DNA from: Rhizophagus irregularis
Lineage: Eukaryota > Glomeromycota > Glomeromycetes > Glomerales > Glomeraceae
Reading direction: 5' to 3'
Assembly: GCF_026210795.1 (NCBI RefSeq)
Contig: NC_089451.1
Coordinates: 2,774,001-2,838,000 of the forward strand
Length of the DNA: 64,000 bases
Position 1 is the first letter of the stretch. Each line of letters begins with the position of its first letter. Below are positions 2,804-42,717 of this stretch, one piece after another. The notes under the pieces are model-generated. The model ran no database searches. It was not told the DNA's origin and saw only the letters and a program-made list of their open reading frames with translations. The translations under genes and the position numbers were made by a program.

Positions 2804-3364
2804 TTGTTTAGTATTTGAATAAGTTTAATAAGTTTGGCAAAATCCAAATTTGTAAAAAGGCCGATTTTTATAAAATTTGGAATAACACAAAATTTGTATA
2901 ATTTGTATGTATAATTAATGTAATCCTGGCTTCTATGATTATTTCAATAATTTTTTAGGATTTAATATTTTTTTTTCGCAAATTTGGCAATTTTATATAA
3001 TAAATTTGCGAATTTTCTAATTAATATACTTTTAAAAATTGCAATATGATTTAAGCTTATTTTACAATAAAAAGCTTATTTTTAAAATAAAAAGCTTATT
3101 TTTAATAAAAAGCTTATTTTTAAAATAAAAAGCTTATTTTATTTTAAAATAACTTTTATTTACAAGATAATCACTTTATCATCCCTTTATCATTTTCGGA
3201 TGCCAAACAAACCTTATCAAAAGAAACTGTAAATTTTAGCGAAAGTTGAAAAGTAACAATTTTGTATTAATCGAAGTGGTATTGCTATAATAACAATATA
3301 TTTTCGATTTTACTGCAAATTTCGACAAAGTATAACTTGCCGCATTAAAGTATATCAAATTTTA
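2804..3364. promoter_or_regulatory. AT-rich spacer upstream of the copy A transposase
   Basis: No gene is visible. The segment is present in inverse orientation in copy B (38900-39461) and is nearly identical there. It holds a short tandem run of the motif AAGCTTATTTT(T)A around 3050-3150. It lies between the transposase ATG and the palindromic repeat array, so it should contain the transposase promoter. I do not see a convincing TATA box at a fixed distance. Confidence 0.5.
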
Positions 3365-5423
3365 ACGCAGTAGAACGCTAACAATTTTCGTAATTTTAAT
3401 TTATTTGTCTTTTTAATTATGATTTATAATTGATTTTTCAATCGAGAAATCAACGCAGGACGCTAACGATTTTCTTATTAATTAATTGATTTGTCTTTTT
3501 AATTATGATTTATAGTTGATTTTTCAATCGAGAAATCAACGCAATAGGACGCTAACGATTTTCTTATTAATTAATTTATTTGATTTTTTAATTATGATTT
3601 ATAGTTGATTTTCCTCGAGAAATCAACGCAGTAGAACGCTAACGATTTTCTTATTAATTAATTGATTTGTCTTTTTTAATTATGATTTATAATTGATTTT
3701 TCAATCGAGAAATCAACGCAGTAGAACGCTAACGATTTTCGTAATTTTAATTGATTTGTCTTTTTTAATTATGATTTATAATTGATTTTTCAATCGAGAA
3801 ATCAACGCAGGACGCTAACGATTTTCTTATTAATTAATTGATTTGTTTTTTTAATTATGATTTATAGTTGATTTTTCAATCGAGAAATCAACGCAGTAGA
3901 ACGCTAACGATTTTCGTAATTTTAATTTATTTGTCTTTTTTAATTATGATTTATAGTTGATTTGTCAATTGAGAAATCAACGCAGTAGGACGCTAACGAT
4001 TTTCTTAATTTTAATTAATTGATTTGTTTTTTTTAATTATGATTTATAGTTGATTTTCCAATCAAGAAATCAACGCAGTAGAACGCTAACGATTTTCTTA
4101 ATTTTAATTAATTGATTTGATTTTTTAATTATGATTTATAGTTGATTTTCCAATTGAGAATTCAACGCAGTAGGATGCTAACGATTTTCTTATTAATTAA
4201 TTTATTTGATTTTTTAATTATGATTTATAGTTGATTTTTCAATCAAGAAATCAACGCAATAGGACGCTAACGATTTTCTTATTAATTAATTTATTTGATT
4301 TTTTAATTATGATTTATAGTTGATTTTTCAATCGAGAAATCAACGCAGGACGCTAACGATTTTCTTATTAATTAATTGATTTGTCTTTTTAATTATGATT
4401 TATAGTTGATTTTTCAATCGAGAAATCAACGCAATAGGACGCTAACGATTTTCTTATTAATTAATTTATTTGATTTTTTAATTATGATTTATAGTTGATT
4501 TCCTCGAGAAATCAACGCAGTAGAACGCTAACGATTTTCTTATTAATTAATTGATTTGTCTTTTTTAATTATGATTTATAATTGATTTTTCAATCGAGAA
4601 ATCAACGCAGTAGAACGCTAACGATTTTCGTAATTTTAATTGATTTGTCTTTTTTAATTATGATTTATAATTGATTTTTCAATCGAGAAATCAACGCAGG
4701 ACGCTAACGATTTTCTTATTAATTAATTGATTTGTTTTTTTAATTATGATTTATAGTTGATTTTTCAATCGAGAAATCAACGCAGTAGAACGCTAACGAT
4801 TTTCGTAATTTTAATTTATTTGTCTTTTTTAATTATGATTTATAGTTGATTTGTCAATTGAGAAATCAACGCAGTAGGACGCTAACGATTTTCTTAATTT
4901 TAATTAATTGATTTGTTTTTTTTAATTATGATTTATAGTTGATTTTCCAATCAAGAAATCAACGCAGTAGAACGCTAACGATTTTCTTAATTTTAATTAA
5001 TTGATTTGATTTTTTAATTATGATTTATAGTTGATTTTCCAATTGAGAATTCAACGCAGTAGGATGCTAACGATTTTCTTATTAATTAATTTATTTGATT
5101 TTTTAATTATGATTTATAGTTGATTTTTCAATCAAGAAATCAACGCAATAGGACGCTAACGATTTTCTTATTAATTAATTTATTTGATTTTTTAATTATG
5201 ATTTATAGTTGATTTTCCTCAAGAAATCAACGCAGTAGAACGCTAACGATTTTCTTAATTTTAATTAATTGATTTGATTTTTTAATTATGATTTATAGTT
5301 GATTTTCCAATTGAGAATTCAACGCAATAGGACGCTAACGATTTTCTTATTAATTAATTTATTTGATTTTTTAATTATGATTTATAGTTGATTTTCAATC
5401 GAGAAATCAACGCAGTAGAACGC
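3365..5423. repeat. Central palindromic tandem array of copy A, left part
   Basis: About two dozen units of roughly 81-90 bp each contain GCTAACGATTTTC, an AT-rich linker, ATTATGATTTATA and a hairpin of the form GTTGATTTTTC-AATC-GAGAAATCAAC. Units differ in small ways (GCAGTAGAACGC, GCAATAGGACGC, GCAGGACGC; a short variant with CCTCGAG at the dyad). A block of about 890 bp starting near 3442 is repeated almost exactly from about 4331, so the array has higher-order structure. The array separates the transposase gene from ORF2 and is interrupted at 5423 by the LTR retrotransposon. It continues at 17202. The same array in copy B is much shorter. Confidence 0.95.
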
Positions 5424-6659
5424 TGAGATCCCCCAATTCCCCCTGTCATCAATTTACAAGGTTGCCACATCGAACGGGCATTCTCATGGTCGAACGAACG
5501 AATGAACGAACAAACAAACGAACGAACGAACAATTAAACGAACAAGCACGTGATCAAAACATAATTAACAAACAACAACATCAGCGAACAACGTACAACA
5601 ACATTCTTGGTTCATAAAATAAATAGCGTTAGTAATACAAAACATTAAACGATATAAAATAAAATATACTTCTCTTTCCTCAAATTATATCCACTTTTAC
5701 CTTTAATTTCAAACTTCGATAGCTCTCGCTACGAATTATCACTTTTCAAAACATATATTTAATTCTTCTTAAATTTTCATTAATTAAAATTAATTAATCA
5801 AACATTAATTAAAGTTTAGGGCGAACCTATTACCTTTAATTAATATTAAACTTCATTAATAATTAAAAAATAAAACTTATATTTTATTGAGTTCTGTGGA
5901 TGCGAACTATGGAATTACTTTGAATTCCGTTCTCTATATATACAATTCTTATGCTATTTTCTATTCTATCTATATACTATTTTTTATGTTCTTTACATAT
6001 TATCTTTGAACTATCTTTCTAATATACTATCTATATTTTAAATACGCTATCTTTTAATATGCTATCTTTTATATTATTTTATATGTTATCTTTTCTATTA
6101 TTCAAATATTACATCGCAAAGAAATAATTTATAACCCATCTTTTATGGCTGTGCTACCTTTTCTTTAAATAATCTTTCAAATATTATGTCGTAAAGATAT
6201 AATTCATCTTTTGTGGCTGTGTTATCTTTTATATATATTCTTTTTAATATGTTATCTTTTATATTCCATCTTTATGCCATCTTTTCATATTATCCTTTAT
6301 ATTATTTTGTGTTCTCCAATCTTTCCGACATTATTTTATATATTCTTTTAATCCACTTTATGTGTTTTGCTTATAATCTATCTTTTGTGGCTTATAATTA
6401 TTCTTTCTTATCGTTCTCATTATTAAAGATCGCTAAGCCGCAAATGATCGACTCTATTTATCCTATTGGTTCTTTGTCAATCATTCAATAAATATTACAT
6501 CATGCAGATCATTATTCTTCTTAAATGTTTATCCTTTTCGGCTAATTATTTATCCATCCACACCAATCCACGATTAATTTGTTCGTTCTTAATACTTGAT
6601 AATTACATTTGGCGGTGGTGTTTTATCATCTTCTCATGCTTGATATTCGGCCGTTTACA
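5424..6659 (-). repeat. 3' LTR of the Ty3/gypsy element
   Basis: The 1236-bp LTR matches 15966-17201 at every position I compared. It contains a degenerate CGAA/CAAA tetranucleotide run near 5493-5540, long AT-rich stretches and many TATCTTTTATAT-like repeats. Small open frames inside it (for example 6213-6491) occur identically in the other LTR and have no protein features. Confidence 0.95.
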
Positions 6660-6673
6660 TTATCCCCCTCTTC
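6660..6673 (-). other. Polypurine tract of the Ty3/gypsy element
   Basis: On the coding strand the sequence just upstream of the 3' LTR reads GAAGAGGGGGATAA, then TGTAAA begins the LTR. A purine run abutting the 3' LTR is the plus-strand DNA primer of LTR elements. Confidence 0.8.
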
Positions 6674-6735
6674 GCTATTTGTGACCTCACAAATAACTTT
6701 AAAAGAATCGAACTCGGGTCTCATTCATAATAATT

Positions 6736-7962
6736 TTAATCGAATCGAACTCGGGTCTTATCGAATACCTCTTTTCCTTTAATTACTATTTTTGGTGTAA
6801 ATCCCCTTCGATCATAAAATTTCTTTAACCATTCTCCATTTTGTGGTGTTTTTAGTATTCTTCCATCCAATTCTTTAAGTTTGTATGCTCCATTTCCAAA
6901 TTCTTCGTGAATTAAATATGGTCCTTTCCATTTGCTCTGTAATTTTCCAGACCATTGTTTCTCTCTCCATGCTTCATATAATAATACTTTTTCTCCTATT
7001 TCAAATTTAGGTTTTCTAATTCCTCTTTTGTCATGTTGTTGTTTTTGTTTCTCTTGAGCTTCTTTCACATTTTCTTTTATTTTCCTTCTTATTACCGGTA
7101 GCTCTTCAATTAATATTTTTATTCTATCAGTTAATGTTATTTTATTTTCGTCTTTATCTAATGGTAGTTTTGCTCTTCTTCCGTATGTTGCATAAAAAGG
7201 TTTAATTCTTGTTGATGATTGCTTCTTTGTCCTATATGCAAATAATACAGATGGTATATGTTTATCCCAATTTTCTTCTCCTAATTTGGCTAATCCTTCG
7301 CATAAAGTTTTATTGAATCTTTCGACCAGACCATTTGTTTGTGGCCTATATGGTGTACTTAATCTATGGTTTATTCCACACCTTTCTACTAATTCTTCCA
7401 TCATTTTATTGTTAAAGTGAGTCCCTCTATCGCTAATTATTTTCTTTGGACATCCATGTCTACAAATTATGTCCCTCCAAATAAATTCTACTACTTCTTT
7501 TGCTGTAGCTTCTTTTAGTGGTGCGGCTTCGGGCCATTTTGTAAAATAATCCATTGCTACTACAATGTACTTATTTCCCTTTTCTGTCTCTTTTAATGGT
7601 CCAACTATATCTATCCCAATCATCTCAAATGGTTCATTTATTTTTATTGGCGTTAATTCGTTCTTTCCTCTTGGTTTTCCTCTCATTTGACAATTCCAGC
7701 ACGTTCTTACATATTCTTCTACATCTTCTTTCATATTTTTCCACCAATAATTTTCTTTTATTCTATCTAATGTTGCTTCTATCCCAAAATGTCCTGATAA
7801 TTCATTATCATGCATCATGTACATCAATCCTTCATATTCATAATCCCTGATTACTCTAAATTTGTTTTGTCCTTTTACTCTATATAGAATTCCCTCTTTC
7901 AATTCATATTTATTCTCCTTTTTGATATTGTCAATTATTCTCTTGTAATTATCTTCTTCCAT
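6736..7962 (-). CDS. Ty3/gypsy integrase (separate ORF)
   Basis: This is a 408-residue integrase that would insert the reverse-transcribed DNA into chromosomes. An N-terminal HHCC zinc-binding domain is visible near residues 50-95 (HDNELSGHFG ... CWNC). The DDE core follows, with DIVGPL, then ISDRGTHF, then PQTNGLVERFNKTL supplying the glutamate. The C-terminal part (FEIGEKVLLYEA ... WKGPYLI) is the usual GPY/F-type module of Ty3 elements. The start is the ATG at 7962. The frame is the same as the RT ORF upstream, but two in-frame TAA codons lie between them (8023-8025 and near 7974). Integrase is therefore not fused to RT in the DNA, unlike most Ty3 pol genes. It may be made by readthrough or reinitiation, or the stops may be damage. 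Confidence 0.95.
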   Translation of the reverse strand: MEEDNYKRIIDNIKKENKYELKEGILYRVKGQNKFRVIRDYEYEGLMYMMHDNELSGHFGIEATLDRIKENYWWKNMKEDVEEYVRTCWNCQMRGKPRGKNELTPIKINEPFEMIGIDIVGPLKETEKGNKYIVVAMDYFTKWPEAAPLKEATAKEVVEFIWRDIICRHGCPKKIISDRGTHFNNKMMEELVERCGINHRLSTPYRPQTNGLVERFNKTLCEGLAKLGEENWDKHIPSVLFAYRTKKQSSTRIKPFYATYGRRAKLPLDKDENKITLTDRIKILIEELPVIRRKIKENVKEAQEKQKQQHDKRGIRKPKFEIGEKVLLYEAWREKQWSGKLQSKWKGPYLIHEEFGNGAYKLKELDGRILKTPQNGEWLKKFYDRRGFTPKIVIKGKEVFDKTRVRFD

Positions 7963-8022
7963 AATATCTCTTTAATTGATTTTGCTTCTAAATTCGTTAT
8001 TTTCGTTATGTGTTCTGTATTT

Positions 8023-10104
8023 TTAGTTCTGTGTTCTTCTCCATTTCTCCACCTCTTTAAATACTTTTCTCCAACTACTATTGTCATTTTTAACTTTTAC
8101 TCGACTGTATCTTTTGGTATCTTTGTACACACTCTGATTTTCTTCAAACATTTTAACCATGTCCAAATATTCATCCTTCTTTAATGTTGGATATGATGAT
8201 TTTTCCGTTTTCTTTGTTTCTCTTCCAATGTAATTTTCCCAACATACATTGCCATCTTTTTCTAAAAATATCACTATTGATTTATCTATTGTTTCTTTCA
8301 ATCTGAATATTTCTTTTTCCATCTCGTGATTTCCATGTGGAGTAATTAATCCTCTGTCAAAACTTTTCGTCTTTTGATAATAATATTCACAATATGGTGA
8401 TTTGTCTAAAATTATTATATCTGTATCTTCATCATATTCTAACATTCTTCTGTTTATTTGTTCCACTACTTCTTTTCTAAATTTCCATTCCGTCTCCATC
8501 TTTGATTCGTGAAATTCATCTTTATCTTTTCTCCTTCTTTTATAAGTGTTGAATCTTACTTTCAATCCTTGTTTTTCCCATTCTTTAATTAAATTTTGTA
8601 CTATACTTGTTTTTCCTAATCCATCCACTCCGTCAATTATTACTATTTCTGGTTGGTCTTCTACTATCTTTAATAACCTACTTAACGCGTCAGCGTTCGT
8701 GTTTTCTTTTCCTGATCTATGTATTACTTCAAAATTATATTGTTGTAATTCCATTACCCATCTTGCTCTTTTTCCTTTTGGTATCTTTGCATTCATTAAT
8801 CCTTTCAATGCACTGTGATCTGTTATTACTTTAAACTTTCTATCGATCAAATATTTATGAAAATGTTGAATTCCCCAAACTATTCCTAAACATTCCAATT
8901 CTGTTATCGGATAATTTTCTTCTGCTGGCAATAAACTTCTACTTGCGTATGCTATCACTACTTCTTTTCCTTTTTCATCTTTTTGACTTAATACTGCACC
9001 TAATCCTTTTCCTGATGCATCTGTTATTAATAAAAATTCTTTCTTCCAATCTGGATGTCGTAATATCGGATATTGTATTAATTTTTCTTTCAATCTTTCA
9101 AATGCTTCTCGTTGTTCTCTTCCCCAAATGAAAGGTACTCCCTTCTTTCTCAAATCACTTATTGGTCTTGCTATCTTTGAAAAGTTTTTCACAAATTTTC
9201 TGTAATATGAACAAAGTCCCAAAAATGATCTTACTTCTTTCACTGTTGTTGGTGCCTTCATTTCTCTTATCTTTTCTATCTTTTTATCGTCTGGCCTTAA
9301 TCCATCATTTCCTACTATATGTCCTAAAAATTCTATATTTCTTTCCAAAAATCTACATTTCTTTAATTTTATTATCAAATTATTCTCCTGTAACTTCTTT
9401 AATACTTTTTCCACATGTTCCATATGGTCTTTCAAATTTCCTGAATATATCATAATATCGTCAATATATACTACCACAAAATCATTTATGTATTCTTCTA
9501 ATATTTCATCCATTAATCTTTGAAATGTTGCTGGTGCGTTCGTTAAACCAAATGGCATTACATTATACTCAAATAATCCCTTTGAACATACAAATGCTGT
9601 TTTTTCTTTGTCTTCTTCTTTCATTTCTACTTGATTAAATCCTGCTGCTAAATCTATGCTTGAAAACCATTTTGCTTTTCTATATTTGTCTAACAATTCA
9701 TCCATTCTTGGTAAAGGAAAACTATCCATTATAGTTATCTTGTTTAACTTTCTGTAATCAATACAGAATCTATATTTTCCCGTTTTCTTTCCTGCTAATG
9801 TAACCGGTGAACTCCACGGACTTTTTGATTTTCTTATCCTTCCTTGTCTTAATAATTTATCTACTTCTTCGCTTATAAATTTTGCCTTTTCGTCTGTTTC
9901 CTTGTATCTTCTTTGTTTTATCGGTTCTACTCCATCTTTTATTTTTATCTCATGTTGCGCCGCTTTTGTTCTCCCTTCTATTTCTTTGTCATACTCCAAA
10001 ATATCTTGGTATTCTAATAATAATTTTACCATATTTTCCCAAATTGGTTCTTCTACTTTCCCTATACTTAATTTTTGCATAAATTTTTCACTTGGTTCGA
10101 GCAT
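8023..10104 (-). CDS. Reverse transcriptase-RNase H with fused thymidylate-kinase-like domain
   Basis: The 693-residue protein starts at the ATG at 10104. The RT domain spans about residues 60-285 and has LPRMDELLD, MPFGLTNAP and the catalytic YIDD at 213-216. RNase H spans about 345-475, with TDASG (D362), E402, TDHSAL (D429) and NADALS (D472). Instead of continuing to integrase, the protein has a further domain of about 205 residues (486-690). It has a Walker A loop GVDGLGKTS at 492-500 preceded by a hydrophobic strand and D491. A second strand ending LDKSPYCEYYYQ (566 onward) matches the DR-x-x-S...YQ motif of dTMP kinases, and a basic lid-like segment follows near 628-633. Its length fits a whole kinase. 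Upstream, the protease frame ends at 10140 in a different frame. The RT and RNase H calls are certain; the kinase family call is strong but based on motifs only. Confidence 0.95.
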   Translation of the reverse strand: MLEPSEKFMQKLSIGKVEEPIWENMVKLLLEYQDILEYDKEIEGRTKAAQHEIKIKDGVEPIKQRRYKETDEKAKFISEEVDKLLRQGRIRKSKSPWSSPVTLAGKKTGKYRFCIDYRKLNKITIMDSFPLPRMDELLDKYRKAKWFSSIDLAAGFNQVEMKEEDKEKTAFVCSKGLFEYNVMPFGLTNAPATFQRLMDEILEEYINDFVVVYIDDIMIYSGNLKDHMEHVEKVLKKLQENNLIIKLKKCRFLERNIEFLGHIVGNDGLRPDDKKIEKIREMKAPTTVKEVRSFLGLCSYYRKFVKNFSKIARPISDLRKKGVPFIWGREQREAFERLKEKLIQYPILRHPDWKKEFLLITDASGKGLGAVLSQKDEKGKEVVIAYASRSLLPAEENYPITELECLGIVWGIQHFHKYLIDRKFKVITDHSALKGLMNAKIPKGKRARWVMELQQYNFEVIHRSGKENTNADALSRLLKIVEDQPEIVIIDGVDGLGKTSIVQNLIKEWEKQGLKVRFNTYKRRRKDKDEFHESKMETEWKFRKEVVEQINRRMLEYDEDTDIIILDKSPYCEYYYQKTKSFDRGLITPHGNHEMEKEIFRLKETIDKSIVIFLEKDGNVCWENYIGRETKKTEKSSYPTLKKDEYLDMVKMFEENQSVYKDTKRYSRVKVKNDNSSWRKVFKEVEKWRRTQN
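8026..8649 (-). other. Thymidylate-kinase-like P-loop domain in the retrotransposon
   Basis: This marks the kinase-like segment inside the RT ORF (residues 486 to the C-terminus). The Walker A lysine and threonine (K498, T499) and the LDKSP motif aspartate (D567) are intact, so the domain has not decayed. The RNase H domain ends just before it, and the ORF stops right after a final helix containing EEVFKEV-like residues typical of the end of dTMP kinases. If active it would phosphorylate dTMP or another deoxynucleoside monophosphate. A deoxynucleoside kinase-like activity is an alternative. The substrate cannot be told from sequence. Confidence 0.8.
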
Positions 10105-10139
10105 CTTTTCCGTCTCTCTCTCTTCAGAGCCAAGACTCT

Positions 10140-10634
10140 CTATTTAAAATCCTGGTGCATTTTGAATACCTCTCCCTCATCGTTACTTTCATATTCTTCA
10201 TCGTCCTCACTCTCTTCGCTTTCATATATTGCTTCTCTTTCATATCCTACTGGGATCGTTATTATTTCTCCCTGTTCTTCTATCCTTAAGGTATGATCTT
10301 CGAAATTTATTTTTGCATTATACAGCTTCCATATATCATTTCCCAAAATTAGATCCTCTTCTTCTGAATCTATTACTTCAACTTCTTTTAGTATCTCTAA
10401 TTCATCTTTGTATCTTAAAGTTATATTTGCTTTTCCTAACGCTGCTATCTTTTGCCCATTTGCTATTGTACATCTAAATTTACTTTTTCCAAATATAGGT
10501 ATATTCAATCTTCTTCTTAATTTATCTGTTATCACACTTACTGCTGCTCCAGTATCTATTATTACATTCACTAATTGATCTTCAACCTCTAATTCTGTTC
10601 TCATTGCTGTAGTTCTTTTCTCTTCATTTTTCAT
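10140..10634 (-). CDS. Retroviral-type aspartic protease (readthrough product of gag)
   Basis: The product is a small aspartic protease of about 165 residues that would process Gag and Pol. The active-site motif IIDTGAAVSV follows ELEVEDQLVNV, and a downstream ILGNDIW matches the conserved I-L-G-x-D block of retropepsins. The frame is the same as gag. The gag TGA (10653-10655) is followed by six sense codons and then the first ATG at 10634, so the protein is probably made mainly as a Gag-protease fusion by readthrough. The ORF ends in an acidic tail and a TAG at 10140-10142. The RT frame is -1 relative to it and opens just at that stop. Confidence 0.9.
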   Translation of the reverse strand: MKNEEKRTTAMRTELEVEDQLVNVIIDTGAAVSVITDKLRRRLNIPIFGKSKFRCTIANGQKIAALGKANITLRYKDELEILKEVEVIDSEEEDLILGNDIWKLYNAKINFEDHTLRIEEQGEIITIPVGYEREAIYESEESEDDEEYESNDEGEVFKMHQDFK

Positions 10635-10649
10635 AGTTCCCACCGAGTG

Positions 10650-10655
10650 TAGTCA
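10650..10655 (-). promoter_or_regulatory. Putative UGA-CUA stop-codon readthrough site between gag and protease
   Basis: On the coding strand gag ends AAT TGA CTA CAC. TGA followed by CTA is the core of a known high-readthrough stop context. The reading frame is open beyond it and encodes the protease. The position and frame fit translational readthrough as the means of setting the Gag to Gag-protease ratio. This is inference from the motif. Confidence 0.6.
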
Positions 10656-13600
10656 ATTTTTCTCGTTTATGCTTCTTGGTCTATATGTTCCTTCTCTCAA
10701 TTGTTTATGATACTTAATATTCTCATTTATCATTTGTCCAATTGTTATATTCGCTCTACAATTTTTCACGTCTTCCACAATATCGTAAGGTGGTATTCCA
10801 TCAGTTAATCTCGGTCCATATTCCCTGGGCTTTCCTGTCCCTGATGGCTTTGTTCTAACCCAATTTCCAAATTCATCTTGCCGCATTCCAGGGTAAAATG
10901 CTTTGCCTTCTTTTGTGAACATTGGTTTATAAAATCTTCCATCTTTTGTCATGGGTCGCCGACCATAATTATAATCTTCTGGTCCTATTGGATTATCCCA
11001 ATTTTGACTATCTTTGTATACATTATTTTGTTCTATCCTTTCGGGCGTATATCTTGGTGTTGTTGTTCCACTTGGTATTTCTCTATCATCCATTCTATTT
11101 CCCGCTTCTCTTAATTCTTCTTGTAAATTTCCTTCTTCACCATTATTTTTATATCCCACTACTGGATTCGTCCTTCTTGTTTGTCTTCTTGTCTTTACTG
11201 CGTTATCTTTTGCGTATAATTCATTATGATAATTTAATTCCCTATCTTCATAATCATCGTAATAACCTTGTGTATAATACATTTCACCGTATTGTGGTTC
11301 CTCATCTTCATATCCATTATAATAATATTCTCCTTGATCATCATATTCGTCCATCATATTTACTCTCGCATTCCTTCCTTCGGGACAATTATTCTTGTAA
11401 TGCCCCACTCTATTACATCTGAAACACATTGGTACCCTATTCTGATTTGGTTGATAACTATTCCTATTACCATTATTTAATCTCCTTCCCATATTTGGTT
11501 GATACCTATCCCTATTATCGTTGTTTAATCTTCTCTCCATATTTGCTACCATTCTTTCTAATTTACTAATTTTCGCCTTCTCTTTAAACATTTCAGCTAA
11601 TTCGTCCTCATAATTTTCGTTCAATGGTTTTGCGAACATATTTTGTCTATTGTCATCTTTTCCAATATCTATTTTCGTACTAATTGGTGTTCCTATTGCT
11701 TTTCTTAAAAATTCGTCTTTTGCACCTTCTTCTCTTACTGCTATTTCTATCGCCCCATTTAAGTTCGCTGGATTCTGTCTTCTAACTTGATATCCTATTG
11801 TTGGTTCTAGTCCTTCGATGTAAAAATCTACTTGATATTCATCTGCTAATGCATGTCCTCTAGTTGCTATTCTTAATATTTGTCTAAATCTTCTTGTATA
11901 TTCTTCAACACTTTCATTTGTTCCTTGCCGAGTTTTTCTTAATTCTAGCATTTTCTTTCTTCTAACATCCTCTCTGGTAAATCTTCTTTTTATTCTATGC
12001 TTTAAGTCATTATCATTATCTGCATCTGCCCAATTCACTAAGTGACCTGCATTTACTTCTTTCATTTCATTATACCATTGCGCTGCTGCTCCTCTTAAAT
12101 GTGCTGCTGCGTATACCGCTTGTCTTACGCCATTAGCTCCCGCTGCTTTTCCGACTGCTGCAAATGCTACCTCGAATTGTCTAACCCAATCGGTAACATC
12201 TTCATCTTCTCTTCCATAAAAGAGTGGTATACTAATTGTTCCTCCTGCTTCATTTCCTGCATTTTCGATCCTATCTATCAAACTTCCTCCTGCTCCTACT
12301 GCTGCGTTCAAAGTATTAGCTGGATAACCTAAAGCGTTCTCTAACAATCTCTTTACTTGATTCTCGGTTGCCATATTCAATATATTCTCTTGAAATAAAT
12401 CTTGTAAATTGTAATCAGATAATTCACTTTCGTTGTCAGAATTTTTAATATTTAATGAACTATTCGTATCTGAATTTTGACTTAAGTCGCTATCCCCTCT
12501 ATTTATAACATTTTCAACTTCATCTTCAAACTCTTCTTCGTTAAAATTTTCAATATCTTCATCCCATCTTTCATCCGGACTTAGTATTTCTCCAATCTTT
12601 TCTGAATCATCTGTATTATCTTCTTCTGATTCTTCATTATCGCTTCTTTCGCCACTTTCTTCACTATCTATTATTCCCGCTTGTTCTTTCAACAACTTAT
12701 CTAATTTTTTCTTCAATTCTTTTTCCGACTCATCTTTATTTTCTTGAAAGATTTCAATGAATTCTTTATCTAAAATTTCTCCATCTGTATATCCCATACT
12801 AATTAACCTCAACAATTCTTCTTCAGTTATTATTGTTCCAATATCTTCAAAAATCTTCTGTAATCTTTTTACCCGATCATCAATTTCATCGATATTTTCT
12901 TCTTCACAACCTTTGCATACCATTCCTCTTACTCTAGACATATCATCCATCCATCCTAATCTAAACATATCATTCATCCATCTTATTTCGCATCTTTCGC
13001 ACCAAGTTGTATTCTGGTTTAACCACTTATGAATTTCTTTTCTTAATTCTTTATCTTCCAAATCTATCATTTCCATATATTCTTCCACAAATTCTTTAGT
13101 TACTATTATTCGATTATTTACCCCAAAACTCTTCATTCTTTGAATTTCTGACACATCTATTTCATATCCTAATTTTTCTAAGCTGTTTCTTAATTCTATT
13201 AGCTCATCTTGTTCATTCTTCTGCGCTTCTTTAACACATTCCCCGCATTCGCTATCCGCTTCGTCCATTTCGAACCTTCTATTACCACATTTTTCACATC
13301 TTATTGTTTCTTTTTCTAACCATTCTTTTATCCTCAATTCTTTTTCCCTTTCATCCAATTCCTCTATCTCTTGAATTTTATCCATAAATATTCTCGTTAC
13401 CAATATATCCATTTCTATCATCAACTTTATTCCTATTTTCCAAATGTACCTCAGTTGATCTTCATCCATAACATTTGACCTTCTTCTTAATTCACTAAAT
13501 TTCCATGATTTATCTCCTATTATTATCTCTAATTCTTCCTCGGAATCATTTTCCAATTCGTAACTTGCTGGACTATCTTCACTTTCTGAATCTTCTGGTT

Positions 13601-14330
13601 CTTTTGTAAATCCCCTAGTATCTATAAATATTCTTATTATCTTTTGCATCATATTCTTGTGATATTCGTGAACATTTTCTATATGTATGTTCTCATATTC
13701 TATTTTGGACATTAGTTCCTTTACTTTCTCCTCATTCATAGCTATTCCTTCTTCTTCATATAGTAACTCCCTAAACGTCTCTATTGCTCCTGTCTTTACT
13801 CGTAATGGTCCAATTTCTTTTGATGTGATTCTATACCATTGCCAAAATTTCTCAAACCTTCTTTCAACATCCCAATCTTCCAAAATATATTTGTGTTCTA
13901 TTAATTCAGGATTTCCAATTAATCTATCAAATACTTCATTCCCCAGATTTCTTTCAATACAGTCTCTTACAATTACTAATATAATTGTTCGTAATCCCCT
14001 TTCTTTCATTTTTGGTTGTATTCTATATCTTATTGATTCCGTTATTCTATCCATTATGTCTCTACATTTCCCTTTATGTATTGTATCTTCCCTTTCTGAA
14101 TTATTCATACTTAATAAATCTAATACTCCCTTAATCGTTACGTCATTGTATATTATTATTGCATCTTCAAATTTAAATAACGCGTCCCAAAATTTCTTGA
14201 ATACTATTGGTTCATTTACTATTGGATAACATAATTCACAATTTAAACATTCATCCAATTCTTCCGTTCCTAATTCGTGTTCTTCTTTATGTGTTCTATA
14301 TTCGCTTTCCCATTGATGGTACCATTCCAT
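10653..14330 (-). CDS. Ty3/gypsy Gag with long N-terminal extension
   Basis: The 1225-residue protein starts at the ATG at 14330. The canonical retrotransposon Gag region begins near residue 653 (MATENQVKRLL), with the capsid-like segment LFYGREDEDVTDWVRQF, AAQWYNE and EEYTRRFRQI. A CCHC zinc knuckle follows (C969, C972, H977, C982), which binds RNA. The C-terminal region is rich in Tyr, Asp, Glu, Asn and Arg. The first ~650 residues are not part of ordinary Ty3 Gag. They are acidic and helical-looking and contain several C-x2-C pairs (DECLNCELC near 27-34; CEKCGNRR and CGEC; CERC; CKGC) that look like zinc ribbons. There is no stop between the two parts. The stop context is UGA-CUA. I do not recognise a family for the extension. 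Confidence 0.92.
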   Translation of the reverse strand: MEWYHQWESEYRTHKEEHELGTEELDECLNCELCYPIVNEPIVFKKFWDALFKFEDAIIIYNDVTIKGVLDLLSMNNSEREDTIHKGKCRDIMDRITESIRYRIQPKMKERGLRTIILVIVRDCIERNLGNEVFDRLIGNPELIEHKYILEDWDVERRFEKFWQWYRITSKEIGPLRVKTGAIETFRELLYEEEGIAMNEEKVKELMSKIEYENIHIENVHEYHKNMMQKIIRIFIDTRGFTKEPEDSESEDSPASYELENDSEEELEIIIGDKSWKFSELRRRSNVMDEDQLRYIWKIGIKLMIEMDILVTRIFMDKIQEIEELDEREKELRIKEWLEKETIRCEKCGNRRFEMDEADSECGECVKEAQKNEQDELIELRNSLEKLGYEIDVSEIQRMKSFGVNNRIIVTKEFVEEYMEMIDLEDKELRKEIHKWLNQNTTWCERCEIRWMNDMFRLGWMDDMSRVRGMVCKGCEEENIDEIDDRVKRLQKIFEDIGTIITEEELLRLISMGYTDGEILDKEFIEIFQENKDESEKELKKKLDKLLKEQAGIIDSEESGERSDNEESEEDNTDDSEKIGEILSPDERWDEDIENFNEEEFEDEVENVINRGDSDLSQNSDTNSSLNIKNSDNESELSDYNLQDLFQENILNMATENQVKRLLENALGYPANTLNAAVGAGGSLIDRIENAGNEAGGTISIPLFYGREDEDVTDWVRQFEVAFAAVGKAAGANGVRQAVYAAAHLRGAAAQWYNEMKEVNAGHLVNWADADNDNDLKHRIKRRFTREDVRRKKMLELRKTRQGTNESVEEYTRRFRQILRIATRGHALADEYQVDFYIEGLEPTIGYQVRRQNPANLNGAIEIAVREEGAKDEFLRKAIGTPISTKIDIGKDDNRQNMFAKPLNENYEDELAEMFKEKAKISKLERMVANMERRLNNDNRDRYQPNMGRRLNNGNRNSYQPNQNRVPMCFRCNRVGHYKNNCPEGRNARVNMMDEYDDQGEYYYNGYEDEEPQYGEMYYTQGYYDDYEDRELNYHNELYAKDNAVKTRRQTRRTNPVVGYKNNGEEGNLQEELREAGNRMDDREIPSGTTTPRYTPERIEQNNVYKDSQNWDNPIGPEDYNYGRRPMTKDGRFYKPMFTKEGKAFYPGMRQDEFGNWVRTKPSGTGKPREYGPRLTDGIPPYDIVEDVKNCRANITIGQMINENIKYHKQLREGTYRPRSINEKN

Positions 14331-15949
14331 TATATGCTTTAGTTAAATTACTATGAATATCCATCCAGAATCTCAATCGGATTCCTCTCTCTATATATAT
14401 ATATTTCACTCTTATCATTTCTATTTTTGATCTTCTAAACATTCTTTCATCTTTAAATAGATTACTTCTTTCAATCTTAGATTCCATCTTTCGGTTCTAT
14501 ATATTTACTACGTCATATTTTACTATTAATTTTTTGCTGCGCCTCGAAATTTCAAAAATTTTTCTAAGTCCACGATCTCCTCAGGCTGCGGAGGTTTTTT
14601 ACTGCGCCATAAAATTTATCTTTTATCACCGATTTCCCTAATTTCACATGTCACATTTTTTCGTCACCGTGATTCATAGTTTCACTTATCACCTCTTTTT
14701 GTCACATCTTTTTGTCACATCTTTTTGTCACCAAGATCCATAATTTCACATATCACAAACTTTACGAAAATTTTGGAGTTTTAAGGTTTGCGAATTTCCA
14801 ATCTTTCTTATCGTCCACATAAATCCTTCTTACTATATATTCTATATTATATAAATTAATCTATAACACACAAAATGTCGTTCTTTTCAGATAAATGTCT
14901 TTCTTTTCAAATAAATGTTCTTTTTCAAATAAATATTCTTTTTCAAATAAATGTTCTTCTTTTAAATAAATGTCCTTCTTTTCGGATTTTACTCTATTAT
15001 TAAATACTGCACGTAATGTTCATTATACGGCTCGTTAATGTGTAAATATCCTTCTATTTTTTCTTCTTTTAACGGAACATTGTAATGAAAGCGTGAACTA
15101 GGACACTACACCAGGAACCCTCATCTGAAATGTAGCCTAGGACCTGTAACAATACAACATATCAGTCTTTTCCTCCTTCGTTGGCCGACTCGTCTCTTAA
15201 CGGGTGAATCTAATCTTCCGAAATCCAGTTTCAAAAGTCATCAGCTATCCATAAAACTCATCTAAACCAACTTTCTTAAATTGGTGGACCTATACTGAGC
15301 TTATCTCTATCTTTTACCCGCTGGAGATACCCCACATTGAAATAAAAGCACGACAGTTTTCAGGTTTGTCCCATTTTATCCATCCAATGTTTCTTGATAG
15401 TAGGTGTCTTTACAACTTTCATTCCCCGTCCCCAAAGCAATTCACATGTTATTGAGCTGGGTATCCAGATTTGACGTAACCCATACGTTATAATCTTTAA
15501 TGTCGAAGAATAAAGATTTTCCAATCTCGAGCATTTATCCAAAATCCAAACTCAGAGGTAACCCATACCACACAGATGAACCCCGGATAATACATTGGTG
15601 TTCTCCCATTATTAATCTTTATTTCAAAATCCATCTTTCACTTCCACATCTCCTTATGAAATTTCTCAGGTACTTTATTCCCGAAAGAAATATTCTTGTG
15701 CTTTCTATCGATTAAATGATTACTTGCACAACTTCAAACTTCAATCTTTCACCTTTTCAAGTTTTTAACTCGATTAAATCCTTGTTGATTTATTGGTTCC
15801 TTTTGAACTCGTCAAAACCTGAAATCTAAAAAATAAATTCTAAAATAAAATATTGATTAATAATACCTATCAGTGACTTACTAACGAAATTAAATTTTCA
15901 TATTCATTATAATAATAATAATCATGTGATGATGATCATTTCCTTTCTT
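14331..15949 (-). other. 5' leader of the Ty3/gypsy element
   Basis: About 1.6 kb separates the primer-binding site from the gag ATG. It contains a short repeat of TTTTTGTCACATC near 14690-14740 and a repeat of AAATAAATGTTCTTTTT near 14885-14970. Two short open frames (14296-14487 and 15360-15542, minus) have no protein features. An intron or packaging signal could lie here. I see nothing decisive. Confidence 0.6.
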
Positions 15950-15963
15950 GCGAGCATGCACCA
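15950..15963 (-). other. Primer-binding site of the Ty3/gypsy element
   Basis: Two bases after the 5' LTR on the coding strand comes TGGTGCATGCTCGC. This begins with TGG, the complement of the universal CCA tRNA 3' end. The matching tRNA would end GCGAGCATGCACCA. The donor tRNA cannot be named from this window. Confidence 0.65.
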
Positions 15964-15965
15964 TA

Positions 15966-17201
15966 TGAGATCCCCCAATTCCCCCTGTCATCAATTTACA
16001 AGGTTGCCACATCGAACGGGCATTCTCATGGTCGAACGAACGAATGAACGAACAAACAAACGAACGAACGAACAATTAAACGAACAAGCACGTGATCAAA
16101 ACATAATTAACAAACAACAACATCAGCGAACAACGTACAACAACATTCTTGGTTCATAAAATAAATAGCGTTAGTAATACAAAACATTAAACGATATAAA
16201 ATAAAATATACTTCTCTTTCCTCAAATTATATCCACTTTTACCTTTAATTTCAAACTTCGATAGCTCTCGCTACGAATTATCACTTTTCAAAACATATAT
16301 TTAATTCTTCTTAAATTTTCATTAATTAAAATTAATTAATCAAACATTAATTAAAGTTTAGGGCGAACCTATTACCTTTAATTAATATTAAACTTCATTA
16401 ATAATTAAAAAATAAAACTTATATTTTATTGAGTTCTGTGGATGCGAACTATGGAATTACTTTGAATTCCGTTCTCTATATATACAATTCTTATGCTATT
16501 TTCTATTCTATCTATATACTATTTTTTATGTTCTTTACATATTATCTTTGAACTATCTTTCTAATATACTATCTATATTTTAAATACGCTATCTTTTAAT
16601 ATGCTATCTTTTATATTATTTTATATGTTATCTTTTCTATTATTCAAATATTACATCGCAAAGAAATAATTTATAACCCATCTTTTATGGCTGTGCTACC
16701 TTTTCTTTAAATAATCTTTCAAATATTATGTCGTAAAGATATAATTCATCTTTTGTGGCTGTGTTATCTTTTATATATATTCTTTTTAATATGTTATCTT
16801 TTATATTCCATCTTTATGCCATCTTTTCATATTATCCTTTATATTATTTTGTGTTCTCCAATCTTTCCGACATTATTTTATATATTCTTTTAATCCACTT
16901 TATGTGTTTTGCTTATAATCTATCTTTTGTGGCTTATAATTATTCTTTCTTATCGTTCTCATTATTAAAGATCGCTAAGCCGCAAATGATCGACTCTATT
17001 TATCCTATTGGTTCTTTGTCAATCATTCAATAAATATTACATCATGCAGATCATTATTCTTCTTAAATGTTTATCCTTTTCGGCTAATTATTTATCCATC
17101 CACACCAATCCACGATTAATTTGTTCGTTCTTAATACTTGATAATTACATTTGGCGGTGGTGTTTTATCATCTTCTCATGCTTGATATTCGGCCGTTTAC
17201 A
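15966..17201 (-). repeat. 5' LTR of the Ty3/gypsy element
   Basis: This copy is the same length as the 5424-6659 LTR and matches it at every position I compared. Transcription should start within it and run leftward on the minus strand. It abuts the resumed CACTA array at 17202 (ACGCTAACG), where the target-site duplication is seen. Confidence 0.95.
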
Positions 17202-17855
17202 ACGCTAACGATTTTCTTATTAATTAATTGATTTGTCTTTTTTAATTATGATTTATAGTTGATTTTTCAATCGAGAAATCAACGCAGTAGAACGCTAACG
17301 ATTTTCGTAATTTTAATTTATTTGTCTTTTTTAATTATGATTTATAGTTGATTTTCCTCGAGAAATCAACGCAGTAGAACGCTAACAATTTTCTTATTAA
17401 TTAATTTATTTGTCTTTTTTAATTATGATTTATAGTTGATTTTTCAATCGAGAAATCAACGCAGTAGAACGCTAACGATTTTCGTAATTTTAATTTATTT
17501 GTCTTTTTTAATTATGATTTATAGTTGATTTGTCAACTGAGAAATCAACGCAGTAGAACGCTAACGATTTTCGTAATTTTAATTTATTTGTCTTTTTTAA
17601 TTATGATTTATAGTTGATTTGTCAATTGAGAAATCAACGCAGTAGGACGCTAACGATTTTCTTAATTTTAATTAATTGATTTGTTTTTTTTAATTATGAT
17701 TTATAGTTGATTTTCCAATCAAGAATTCAATGCAGTAGGACGCTAACGATTTTCTTAATTTTAATTAATTTATTTGTCTTTTTTAATTATGATTTATAAT
17801 TGATTTTTCAATCGAGAAATCAACGCAGGACGCTAACGATTTTCTTATTAATTAA
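17202..17855. repeat. Central palindromic tandem array of copy A, right part
   Basis: About seven to eight more units of the array at 3365-5423, in the same orientation and with the same dyad, are separated from it only by the retrotransposon. The array ends just before the ORF2 promoter. Confidence 0.95.
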
Positions 17856-17869
17856 TTGATGATTTTTAA

Positions 17870-17880: not shown

Positions 17881-17887
17881 GGACGAT

Positions 17888-34844: not shown

Positions 34845-35480
34845 TATTCATAAATTTACCGAATTGCAGTGAATTTATTCTGAATTATGATAAATTTTGA
34901 TAAATTGCGATAAATTTTAATCTGAATTGCAGTAAATTTTAATCTGAATTGCAGTAAATTTTAATCTGAATTGCAGTAAATTTTAATCTGAATTGCAGTA
35001 AATTTTAATCTGAATTGCAGTAAATTTTAATCTGAATTGCAGTAAATTTATTCTGAATTGCGGTAAATTTTATTCTGAATTGCGGTAAATTTTCTATTCT
35101 GAATTGCGGTAAATTTATTCTGAATTGCGGTAAATTTTATTCTGAATTGCGGTAAATTTTATTCTGAATTGCAGTAAATTTTAATCTGAATTGCAGTAAA
35201 TTTTCTATTCTGAATTGCGGTAAATTTTATTCTGAATTGCGGTAAATTTATTCTGAATTGCGGTAAAAATTTAATGAATTGCGGTTAATTTATTCTGAAT
35301 TGCGGTAAAAATTTAATGAATTGCGGTTAATTTTATTCTGAATTGCGTCTGAATTGCAGTAAATTTTATTCTGAATTATGGTATATTTGCAGTAAATTTT
35401 ATTCTGAATTGCGGTAAATTTGCAGTAAATTTATTTCGAATTGTAATTAATTTTTTTCTGAATTAAGACAAATTTATTTT
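34845..35480. repeat. Short tandem repeats TCTGAATTGCGGTAAATTT, copy B
   Basis: About 28 units of 20-25 bp, the reverse complement of 20440-21065. Two sub-types, with GCAGTAAATTTTAA and GCGGTAAATTTTATT, are arranged in blocks. Confidence 0.9.
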
Positions 35481-35582
35481 GAATTATGGAAAATTCTAAT
35501 ACTAATAATTTGGAATATTAATTACATATATATATAGATTTTTGACGAAAAAAAGAAAGTTTTCTACCAAATTAATTCAGAT

Positions 35583-38039
35583 TCGTTCATTGCGCGTCGT
35601 CCATATGTAAATCAGAATCTGAATTATTATGATTGTCACCGACTGTTGATTTTGATGGTTTTTCTTCTTCTTCCTTGTTATGGTCTTCATCATTTTCGGT
35701 GGTGTTGCCAGTTGCTGGTGTTGTCCCTCTACTAACTTCTTCTTCTTCTTCATCATATTCAGTGATTAAACCCTGATCGATATCAGTATCGAATATTAAA
35801 TCTTGTTGTTGTATGATATAAGACCATTCGGGAGCATTCGACGGATGTGGTCGGTCTAATTTTGTACCTCGTCGTCGTATCTACGTTCGCGTATTAATTT
35901 CGACTTATTTGACGAGTGTACATCGAGTACATTTCGTAGCAAATTTTTAAGCTGAAGAAACAATAAAATATAAAAATTAAATCCAGCGATTCGTCTGAAA
36001 AATCAAGATTCAGAAGTTCTAACCTCATCAGATCTCCACGAATAGTCGTAAATAGCAATTATGGACTTTGTTGGGTCTTCTTCATCTGTCTCGCTTATTT
36101 CTGGAGAATGAAATAAGCGATTGGATAACATCTTTAGTAATCTACGCTTATCATATTTTGTTATCCGTTCATCGTCAAAACTATATAATCTCTTTGCCGC
36201 CTTAATTCGGCGGATTTTCTTCTAAAATACGTTATAATTTGAATAAAATTCAATACATAATCAGAATAAAATTCAGCATAATAATTATAAATCATTACTA
36301 ACGTCGTATACTCGATTGTTTGAGTGCACCCGGTGTTTATTTTCATCGGCTTTTCCCCTATCCATTAATCTTTGATGAGAATGACGAGACTTGTGGAGAC
36401 AACCCAACCATTTTGTAAGTTGCTTATTCGAAGCGGGAAAATACGGAGCAAGGGCTGAACGCAATTCAGGGACTAGCTTATGACGAATCTTGAGATTTTT
36501 CACGCTATTGAACGTTTCATTGTAATCTAGTCCTCGAGTTTCATCGATGGTTTTCAAAATAGACTTCATTTCAGCCTAAATATAACAATCAAATAATGAT
36601 AACCGGTACTTAATTACTCAATACTGCAATTTTAAATAACTGAATCAGACAAATAAAATTAATATACCCTAGCTTCTTTTTTGTCGTACTCATCATTATT
36701 GTTAGAACCAGACCGTTCTTTCTCCGAATCTTCCTCGTATCGCTCGGACTTTTTTGTCTTAATTCTTTTTTGACGTTTTGCCGGCTGTTCGAGATCCGTC
36801 TGCCTATGAATGGCTTTAGGCAGACGGATTCTCGAATACCTGTTTAAGCTTTCGTGTAGATCGTCATTCTCGTCTGCAAAGGCCTCGTTTATTCGAGTCA
36901 AAAAACGATTTTCGTCGAATAATCAGTTATTTTCACGTTGAAGCTTTGCATTCTCTACTTGTACTTCTTCAATTTGTTTCTTTAATTTTAGATTTTCTAA
37001 ATAAAGAATTTTATTAATAGTAATATTTTTTTACGAATAATTCTGGATTTATACGAATGAAGTCAAAATCGTACCTGCTTCTAAATTAGTATCGTCGTCA
37101 TCGATCATCCTTTCATTACCTTGATCGTCTTTAACCACTAATATGAATTTTTGTGGAATTCGAATATTCCCATATCGTTTTTTCATTTCCGATAACATCT
37201 CTTGTTGATCTATAAAAATTATTAATTATCGTACATGTCAATCAGCAATTTTCCAAAATTCAATTACCTTTAGGAATATTTGGCGGTTCAATTTCTATAA
37301 CCTCATCGTCAGACTCTTCTTGAGTCGGCTTAGTCGACTTTGCAGATTTGAGGATCGACTTGATGGGTGACGATTTGCTAGTCGACTTATTGGTTTTGTC
37401 AATCGTCTCATTCGGATTACTTTCTTCTTCTGTTCTTCCCCGTTGACGATTAGATCCTTCGTCAGGTGTTTCTTCTTGAAACCTTTGCTGCTTTTGTTTG
37501 TTTGACTTGGTGAGTGACGATTTGCTAGTCGACTTATTGGTTTTGTCACTCGTCTCATTCGGATCACTTTCTTCTTCTGCTCTTTCCCGTTGACAATTAG
37601 ATCCTTCGCTCGGTGTTTCTTCTTGAAACCTTTGCTGCTTTTGTTTGTTTGACTTGGTGGGTGACGATTTGCTAGTCGACTTATTGGTCTTGTCACTCGT
37701 CTCATTCGGATTACTTTCTTCTTCCGTTCTTCCCCGTTGACGATTAGATCCTTCGTCAGGTGTTTCTTCTTGAAACCTTTGCTGTTTTTGTTTGTTTGAC
37801 TTGGTGGGTGACGATTTGCTAGTCGACTTATTGGTCTTGTCACTCGTCTCATTCGGATTACTTTCTTCTTCCGTTCTTCCCCGTTGATGATTAGATCCTT
37901 CGTCAGGTGTTTCTTCTTGAAACCTCTGTTGCTTTTGTTTGTTATTTTTTTTATTGTTTTTTTTATTATTGCTATTATTTGACATTTTATATTCACTCAA
38001 TATTCGTTTAAAAAATCGAAGCGGGTTCAATATCGTCAT
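35583..38039 (-). pseudogene. CACTA element second gene (ORF2), copy B
   Basis: The exon structure is the same as in copy A: 38039-37268, 37209-37075, 36996-36668, 36575-36330, 36221-36024 and 35951 onward, with lengths 772, 135, 329, 246 and 198 conserved. Exon 3 has TGA at 36923-36925 where copy A has CGA. Exon 6 has CGA where copy A has TGA (35934-35936) but then reaches TAG at 35856-35858 through a one-base length difference. The two copies thus have different lesions and share an ancestor with a longer acidic last exon ending near 35583. The N-terminal four-fold repeat is intact. The likelier start is the ATG at 37985. Confidence 0.8.
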
Positions 38040-38059
38040 ATCGTCCTATTTATAAATTT

Positions 38060-38905
38060 AAAAATCATCAATTAATTAATAAGAAAATCGTTAGCGTTCT
38101 ACTGCGTTGATTTCTCGATTGAAAAATCAACTATAAATCATAATTAAAAAAGACAAATAAATTAAAATTACGAAAATCGTTAGCGTTCTACTGCGTTGAT
38201 TTCTCGATTGAAAAATCAACTATAAATCATAATTAAAAAATCAAATAAATTAATTAATAAGAAAATCGTTAGCGTCCTATTGCGTTGATTTCTCGATTGA
38301 AAAATCAACTATAAATCATAATTAAAAAAGACAAATAAATTAAAATTACGAAAATCGTTAGCGTTCTACTGCGTTGATTTCTCGATTGAAAAATCAACTA
38401 TAAATCATAATTAAAAGACAAATCAATTAATTAATAAGAAAATCGTTAGCGTCCTGCGTTGATTTCTCGATTGAAAAATCAATTATAAATCATAATTAAA
38501 AAAGACAAATAAATTAAAATTACGAAAATCGTTAGCATTCTACTGCGTTGATTTCTCGATTGAAAAATCAATTATAAATCATAATTAAAAAAGACAAATC
38601 AATTAATTAATAAGAAAATCGTTAGCATTCTACTGCGTTGATTTCTCGAGGAAAATCAACTATAAATCATAATTAAAAAATCAAATAAATTAATTAATAA
38701 GAAAATCGTTAGCGTTCCTATTGCGTTGATTTCTCGATTGAAAAATCAACTATAAATCATAATTAAAAAGACAAATCAATTAATTAATAAGAAAATCGTT
38801 AGCGTCCTGCGTTGATTTCTCGATTGAAAAATCAATTATAAATCATAATTAAAAAGACAAATAAATTAAAATTACGAAAATTGTTAGCGTTCTACTGCGT
38901 TAAAA
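38060..38905. repeat. Central palindromic tandem array of copy B
   Basis: About ten units of the same ~81-90 bp repeat as in copy A, in reverse complement. The array is about 0.85 kb against about 2.7 kb in copy A once the retrotransposon is removed. Confidence 0.95.
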
Positions 38906-39461
38906 TTTGATATACTTTAATGCGGCAAGTTATACTTTGTCGAAATTTGCAGTAAAATCGAAAATATATTGTTATTATAGCAATACCACTTCGATTAATA
39001 CAAAATTGTTACTTTTCAACTTTCGCTAAAATTTACAGTTTCTTTTGATAAGGTTTGTTTGGCATCCGAAAATGATAAAGGGATGATAAAGTGATTATCT
39101 TGTAAATAAAAGTTATTTTAAAATAAAATAAGCTTTTTATTTTAAAAATAAGCTTTTTATTAAAAATAAGCTTTTTATTTTAAAAATAAGCTTTTTATTG
39201 TAAAATAAGCTTAAATCATATTGCAATTTTTAAAAGTATATTAATTAGAAAATTCGCAAATTTATTATATAAAATTGCCAAATTTGCGAAAAAAAAATAT
39301 TAAATCCTAAAAAATTATTGAAATAATCATAGAAGCCAGGATTACATTAATTATACATACAAATTATACAAATTTTGTGTTATTCCAAATTTTATAAAAA
39401 TCGGCCTTTTTACAAATTTGGATTTTGCCAAACTTATTAAACTTATTCAAATACTAAACAA

Positions 39462-42400: not shown

Positions 42401-42717
42401 ACACCTACCCAGGTCAAATTCAGTATTATTTTACTCACGTAGTAGACTTTCCGGATAGTCCCGTCGAACATTTTCTAGCATACGTTCGTTGGTATAAACA
42501 CGCAAATTCAACCAATATTCGATACTATTTCAGCAGTGATGAAATTTGTAATGTTGAGTTGTGGAATACCGAATTTTATCCAATAAGTCGTGATTGTATA
42601 ATACCTGTGCATCATATTTTAGGTAGATTTGTACCAGTAAGTTACCAAATCTCAAACCGGCAAAATGCAAGAGAGTATTTAGCCGTAAATCCAATTAGTA
42701 GAAAATACCAATTATAA
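39462..42717 (+). pseudogene. CACTA/Plavaka-type transposase, copy B, three in-frame stops
   Basis: One frame runs 39462-41805, then an intron 41806-41884 (GTAAAT...TTTTAG), then 41885-42717, about 1058 codons. Domains in order: CNCPDC...TKEIH zinc-like motif (residues ~57-75), acidic linker, CPKCHK motif (~287), the block IYAAICNLPRDIRF / PGPKKVSLHKV, CDIPAARK, a CHRC pair, and the hallmark VDPMHCLFLGIAKWIVK near 612-628. These are the landmarks of fungal Plavaka (CMC/CACTA) transposases, which cut and paste the element. Stops are TGA at 40488-40490 (CGA in copy A), TGA at 40647-40649 (TGG in copy A) and TGA at 41346-41348. The C-terminal exon is complete and corrects what is scrambled in copy A. 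Confidence 0.9.

Follow-up and report, generated by a model that had tools for sequence, protein, structure and literature searches.

The locus described here raises the question why a retrotransposon should carry a domain resembling a nucleotide kinase within its Pol region. In the window, i.e. the whole stretch of 64,000 nucleotides of Rhizophagus irregularis DNA that was analysed, a Ty3-type long terminal repeat (LTR) retrotransposon of 11.8 kb is located at 5424-17201 and reads on the minus strand. Its 693-aa open reading frame (ORF; 10104..8023, minus strand) encodes reverse transcriptase (RT; residues 106-264) and RNase H (residues 352-456) and runs on without interruption for about 208 residues, in which a Walker A loop (GVDGLGKTS) and the segment LDKSPYCEYYYQ are both present. 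The extension of the ORF past RNase H with an intact Walker A loop had already been noticed in a sequence-only reading of this DNA and is seen again here. According to profile matches and alignments, the extension probably represents a P-loop kinase domain resembling thymidylate kinases (TMKs) and deoxynucleoside kinases (dNKs), which we file as neither TMK nor dNK. We give about even chances to the interpretation that a Ty3-type lineage of the Glomeraceae gained such a TMK/dNK-superfamily kinase once and retained it as a working part of Pol, where it would phosphorylate a (deoxy)nucleoside monophosphate for cDNA synthesis.

The kinase-like domain does not close Pol but is seated between RNase H and integrase. 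The RT and RNase H part of the ORF occupies 8650..10104 (minus strand; PF00078 2.7e-44, PF17917 2.8e-37), the kinase domain and its stop codon follow at 8023..8649 (minus strand; residues 486-693), and the 408-aa integrase ORF at 6736..7962 (minus strand; PF17921 1.2e-21, PF00665 1.2e-14) starts 60 bp past the kinase stop codon. Kinase ORF and integrase use a common frame, and the 60-bp gap contains a second in-frame stop besides that of the kinase. The assumption that the domain takes the place of integrase therefore had to be given up, all the more as kinase and integrase are directly joined in one subfamily. This became apparent from the anatomy of 40 genome loci and the window copy (41 loci). 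The kinase lies within the RT ORF in subfamily A, to which the window copy belongs; in subfamilies B (e.g. L026-L028) and C (e.g. L031-L034), RNase H and the kinase share a single ORF of 777-779 codons and are connected by a linker of about 75-80 residues; an RT ORF of 493 codons is followed by kinase and integrase in one 600-codon ORF in subfamily D (e.g. L044-L047); and subfamily E (L053-L055) consists of broken copies close to A. The order RT-RNase H, kinase, integrase is constant in every locus having all three, while RT or integrase is absent or broken in several loci, e.g. L017, L023, L048 and L052. Because the kinase is joined to RNase H in some subfamilies and to integrase in D, its place is the RNase H-integrase joint, and it is not tied to RNase H.

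The domain is widespread. At least 151 matches were found in the same R. irregularis genome (146.7 Mb, 32 contigs), and this number is a lower bound, since 150 of 173 candidates were scored. Among 56 genome copies with at least 213 of the 215 domain residues and at least 94% identity, 53 have no internal stop. Given this number of matches, mostly open and near-identical copies, the domain is not a product of chance, and a private insertion, which the sequence-only reading had named as an outcome that would refute it, or an assembly artefact was ruled out. Searches of protein databases yielded 38 matches at first, 115 with the element kinase profile A1 (P0152 and P0153 among them are doubtful) and 100 with profile A2, the last of which is a chance P-loop match (E 5.3). 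The named relatives come from R. irregularis (mostly strain DAOM 181602), R. clarus, R. diaphanus and Glomus cerebriforme, all of them members of the Glomeraceae. The remaining relatives are unnamed or metagenomic, and some source annotations already label these proteins automatically as 'thymidylate kinase' or 'thymidylate kinase-like'.

Furthermore, the kinase domain is under purifying selection. The ratio of nonsynonymous to synonymous substitutions (dN/dS, Nei-Gojobori) among 10 copies of subfamily A is 0.078 (bootstrap 0.043-0.118), with some bias towards low values because the copies were taken from the 56 and are all open. In the same subfamily, 0.033 (0.019-0.050) was obtained for RT and 0.083 (0.056-0.119) for the integrase of five copies; when the kinase DNA was shifted to its wrong reading frames, the values were 0.73 and 3.3. 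Other sets of kinase sequences showed values of 0.078 (C), 0.161 (B), 0.145 (D) and 0.092 (A versus B). The median dS within subfamily A amounts to 0.21, and the constraint is therefore older than the latest burst alone.

The columns under constraint include those expected for a catalyst. In the rows covering each site, from 48 genome copies and 155 aligned proteins that partly overlap, the Walker A lysine is kept in 46/47 genome copies and 112/114 proteins, D89 in 47/48 and 117/120, K90 in 48/48 and 119/120, and the acidic P-loop residue D16 in 46/47 and 108/112; R150 and K154 are also retained. The element kinase thus displays the TMK-type P-loop GxDGxGK[TS] with its acidic residue, and the D16 column contains D or E in the nine TMKs compared and V or I in two dNKs. 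Moreover, the family has conserved residues of its own, among them the highly conserved basic run K44-R45-R46-R47 and W144. TMKs possess the motif D-R-x-x-x-S...Y-Q. In the joint alignment DKSPYCEYYYQ is placed beneath TMK segments such as DRFTLSTLAYQ, and the family segment reads DKSPY[CS]EY[FY]YQ; hence, of the DR-x-x-S...YQ motif initially proposed for the window copy, D, S/C, Y and Q hold while R is K.

The kinase has also been exchanged between subfamilies. When the subfamily B element L026 was compared with L036 in 100-column windows, identity reached 97-100% at about 507-1995 (RT-RNase H and linker), fell to only 64-84% over the kinase (about 1995-2620), where L026 and the window copy are 82-93% identical, and rose again to 86-99% over the integrase from about 3172; the kinase-integrase spacer of L026 is about 300 bp longer than that of L036. 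B groups with A in the kinase tree (97/90). Holding B together with L036 in that tree was rejected (approximately unbiased test, p-AU 4.9e-45), as was, in the RT tree, a single group made of A, B and E plus the near proteins P0013 and P0015 (p-AU 0.0002); the groups were named after the identities had been seen, so these p-AU values need care, the identity profile itself being plain. Judged from these comparisons, a kinase swap has taken place in subfamily B, its breakpoints lying close to the domain edges, and the kinase is an exchangeable module in this element family. Separately, another Ty3 lineage (L058, 1568-2458, and L062) carries a cysteine-rich tail of about 297 aa after RNase H that has no Pfam match; the RNase H-integrase joint took up something different there.

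For comparison, six kinase-less elements of Ty3 type (L057-L062) were chosen by hand from the PF17919 list of this genome, with long frames and away from kinase matches. Their RT is 48-59% identical and they likewise have integrase downstream but, unlike the kinase-bearing elements, nothing that resembles the kinase after RNase H and ahead of integrase, and tblastn with the kinase found no match in them. In an RT tree of 32 rows, the 26 kinase-bearing rows fall on one side of a branch with support 94/98 (not starred) and the six kinase-less rows apart, with L057 as a long branch adjoining the kinase-bearing clade. A single gain of the kinase is fitting with this tree when the distant kinase-less rows serve as outgroup, although the tree alone cannot separate gain from loss.

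Which type of kinase was gained is less clear. At E up to 0.01, all 12 of 12 domain-family members match Pfam PF02223 (TMK), 3.1e-8 being the best value, and in a set of 41 it is the commonest Pfam match (33 at E up to 0.001). NCBIfam TIGR00041 (12/12, best 6.4e-8) and phrog_761 'thymidylate kinase' (12/12, best 2.6e-16) point in the same direction; the latter match is near full-length in the window copy (1.1e-13 over residues 9-210). Comparison by hhalign, whose E-values are those of single comparisons, gave 96.4% with eight phage/halovirus TMKs and P0152 over residues 4-105. Several results weigh against a monophosphate kinase that acts like a TMK. The window copy itself stands outside the set of 33 (PF02223 0.0012), scarcely ahead of AAA_14 (0.0015), and lies below the curated cut-offs, with PF02223 scores of 20.0 bits for the whole ORF and 19.0 bits for the domain by itself (gathering cut-off 27 bits) and 19.7 bits for TIGR00041 (cut-off 83.25 bits). 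Phrog_761 matches TMK (4.1e-37) but dNK too (2.5e-17) and therefore marks the superfamily. Profile searches against the PDB first returned only the P-loop of FtsY, with TMK chains at E about 0.1, so that sequence searches of solved structures found little beyond the P-loop. DK replaces the DR of the TMK motif, and V68 occupies, in an alignment-dependent manner, the column of the TMK 'AAR' arginine, which contacts thymine (46/48 genome copies, 114/119 proteins). In addition, the near-related kinase-less element L057 manages without the domain. Hence, the thymidylate-kinase-type P-loop domain suggested by the sequence-only reading is supported, with PF02223 as commonest match, while its identity as a dTMP kinase is not, in view of the scores below cut-offs, DK, V68 and the result for the dNK-like gene L013 of the same genome. 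When the A2 profile was compared with 16 sequences, L013 came top at 39.2 bits, ahead of the TMK P0152 (34.5 bits), and eight phage-type TMKs reached at most 14 bits or were not reported. A dNK, supplying nucleotides via nucleosides and not via monophosphates, would explain this; the segment DKSPY[CS]EYFY, with its S and Y, aligns with DRTPLSSYFF of L013, hhalign to two dNKs gave 94.2% over more columns (residues 6-151), the thymine-contact arginine column is not kept, and five of the 12 members match PF01712 (E up to 0.01). However, the acidic P-loop is of the TMK type and differs from that of the two dNKs, where I or V is found, PF01712 matches are rare and weak (2 of 41 at E up to 0.001, as opposed to the 33 for TMK), and the dNK SP15 scored just 2.6 bits, which leaves this explanation unlikely, though to be taken seriously.

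The domain might also act as a kinase or ATPase on nucleic acid or protein, for example on DNA/RNA 5' ends or in a KTI12-like manner, and thereby aid cDNA synthesis or integration. KTI12 (PF08433), which shares the P-loop, is the second commonest Pfam match (23/41), and among seven more distant relatives four pass its cut-off of 22 bits (P0062, P0068, P0077, P0089; P0030 has 21.7), while the TMK cut-off is reached by one (P0077, 27.1 bits); these counts again weaken the case for a TMK-like enzyme. Further P-loop families, namely AAA_14 and NPHP3_N, are matched above their cut-offs by some of the seven; for P0088, nothing in Pfam reaches E 0.001. The conserved basic run, the fusion of kinase and integrase in subfamily D and matches to AAA_33 (3/12 and 1/41), which includes PNK-like kinases, would suit an action on nucleic acid as well. 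Yet the KTI12 matches span about the first 85 domain residues in all shown proteins except P0089, the window copy stays under the cut-off (17.3 bits), the AAA_33 matches are scarce and weak, and the metagenome protein P0155 (46% identical), in which a NUDIX domain (24.8 bits, cut-off 21.1) is fused ahead of a kinase relative, points towards free nucleotides. We regard an action on nucleic acid or protein as rather improbable; nevertheless, the L013 score and the KTI12 cut-offs lowered our confidence in the monophosphate kinase and raised these two alternatives. A domain that binds nucleotides without catalysis and serves Pol as a structural part or a regulator could account for the 16 of 156 rows that fail the P-loop pattern used, including L025 from the dN/dS set, a finding that also counts against catalysis in general; it is very improbable, because the catalytic-type residues rank among the best-conserved columns. 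That the domain is a mere passenger, be it a recently captured piece of a host gene or an artefact of assembly, has nothing in its favour except that no function is known, and it is hardly conceivable with so many matches, several species, one clade, purifying selection and module exchange.

Searches for the donor of the kinase in several directions did not reveal one. For a prokaryotic or viral donor, A2 scans of genome contigs and viral contigs gave 46 and 81 pattern matches, respectively, of which 0 were confirmed by tblastn (1e-3), and tblastn of phages with the kinase domain gave a single match at E 0.9. The PF02223 search of the genome produced four matches. L011 adjoins a kinase-domain match of the element family; the other three are L009, L010 and L012 (two exons' worth of one locus). 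The two host TMK-like genes were rejected as donors; they have the ordinary DRY motif, blastp of their pieces to the window domain gave E of at least 0.9, and their A2 scores are at most 13.8 bits. The nearest TMK outside the elements is P0152, found with A1 at 3.9e-4 and, apart from the single comparison mentioned above, not among the A2 database matches at E up to 10. Among sequences outside the elements, the element kinase profile matches L013 best (G000:C28:1224005-1224616), an ORF of 335 aa that encodes a deoxynucleoside kinase domain (PF01712 1.2e-31, PDB dNKs 2.6e-11). With 22% identity over 116 residues L013 was treated as a distant relative and not as a shown donor. A region derived from a giant virus is reported for R. 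irregularis (PMC10640383).

The other parts of the window element are those of a Ty3/gypsy LTR retrotransposon, with two LTRs, a target-site duplication, a putative primer-binding site and polypurine tract, and ORFs arranged as Gag, protease, RT-RNase H-kinase and integrase. The 5' LTR (15966..17201, minus strand) and the 3' LTR (5424..6659, minus strand) are identical in 1236/1236 bases. The putative primer-binding site TGGTGCATGCTCGCAAG (15947..15963, minus strand), named from its TGG start and its position 2 bp inside the 5' LTR, and the putative polypurine tract GAAGAGGGGGATAA (6660..6673, minus strand) adjoining the 3' LTR enclose the coding part. The Gag ORF of 1225 aa (10653..14330, minus strand; PF03732 6.7e-13, PF19259 2.4e-9, PF00098 0.0041) contains a Ty3-type capsid at residues 733-868 and a CCHC zinc knuckle at about 968-984. 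Gag of such length is unusual for Ty3; a Pfam scan of residues 1-657 found no family match, and CxxC pairs are present in the N-terminal ~650 residues (window 12360-14330, minus strand). The aspartic protease ORF (10140..10643, minus strand; PF13975 3.4e-9) is in frame with Gag, with one stop between. The flanks of the LTRs carry ACGC as target-site duplication at 5420..5423 and 17202..17205. An inverted duplicate of the flanks at 34929..42674 (minus strand; 97-99% identity to 1-573, 1056-4219 and 17201-21000) lacks the element and contains the empty site at about 38.7 kb. The joined flanks match the empty site at 96.6% with a single ACGC and at 96.2% if the duplication is 5 bp; the insertion site lies inside a tandem array, so that several alignment registers are possible. 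Because the LTRs are identical and an empty site exists in the inverted flank duplicate, a recent insertion is supported, and the earlier statements that the LTRs are identical and that the element was recently mobile with the domain were borne out. The array hosting the element has a unit of about 89 bp (window 3258-5436, 17176-17867). The retrotransposon is present in only one arm of the inverted duplication (window 1-21000 versus 34929-42674), while both arms have a Transposase_21 (tnp2) ORF (PF02992; 959..2803 minus, 1.1e-11; 40704..41348 plus, 7.3e-10) and also a repetitive 259-aa ORF.

Elements with an enzyme of deoxynucleotide metabolism are known from dUTPase, which occurs in vertebrate retroviruses, the bdelloid elements Juno, Vesta and TelKA, and fungal LTR elements of Postia, Phanerochaete and Tuber. 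These elements carry a dUTP hydrolase, whereas the extra domain of the window element is P-loop kinase-like and follows RNase H, ahead of integrase. Reverse transcription needs deoxynucleoside triphosphates (dNTPs), and hosts restrict retroviruses by draining them. Passages in PMC5408684 and PMC2864245 describe that the place of the dUTPase in Pol varies and that bdelloid elements exchange extra ORFs, and a passage in PMC2864245 refers to an assumption made elsewhere, namely that viruses with dUTPase are able to replicate in cells that do not divide. The literature search found no report of retrotransposons with a thymidylate or deoxynucleoside kinase, with preprints and most subscription journals outside its coverage. 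In two papers on transposable elements of R. irregularis, 12 of the 21 'kinase' passages of PMC8647823 deal with expanded signalling kinase genes and other subjects, and the sole one of PMC11075540 with protein kinase among expanded genes. Retroelements with a captured nucleotide enzyme are so far known for dUTPase.

The mechanism we propose would begin with the gain of the P-loop kinase between RNase H and integrase in a Ty3-type lineage of the Glomeraceae. Made as part of Pol, the kinase would travel with RT to the virus-like particle or the cytoplasm, where phosphorylation of a (deoxy)nucleoside monophosphate might provide more dNTP, perhaps dTTP, for cDNA synthesis, and the benefit might arise in spores and hyphae whose nuclei seldom divide. 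Catalysis, substrate, packaging and benefit are the parts that we infer: that catalysis helps the element is suggested by purifying selection, the retained P-loop lysine, D89, K90, R150 and K154 and the exchange of the whole module, and that a dNTP is raised by the analogy with dUTPase-bearing fungal LTR elements. The wider picture, an element lineage that brings its own dNTP-supply kinase in Pol for reverse transcription in quiescent, low-dNTP nuclei or spores and trades this kinase as a module, appears to us somewhat short of evenly balanced. The RNase H-integrase joint of Pol is a place where modules are acquired, retained and exchanged. If the proposed function is true, an element-made nucleotide kinase would be a direct counter-strategy to dNTP limitation and a second enzyme besides dUTPase for the nucleotide management of retroelements, and the question how dNTPs are supplied in fungal cells that have many nuclei and mostly rest would become testable via one purified domain.
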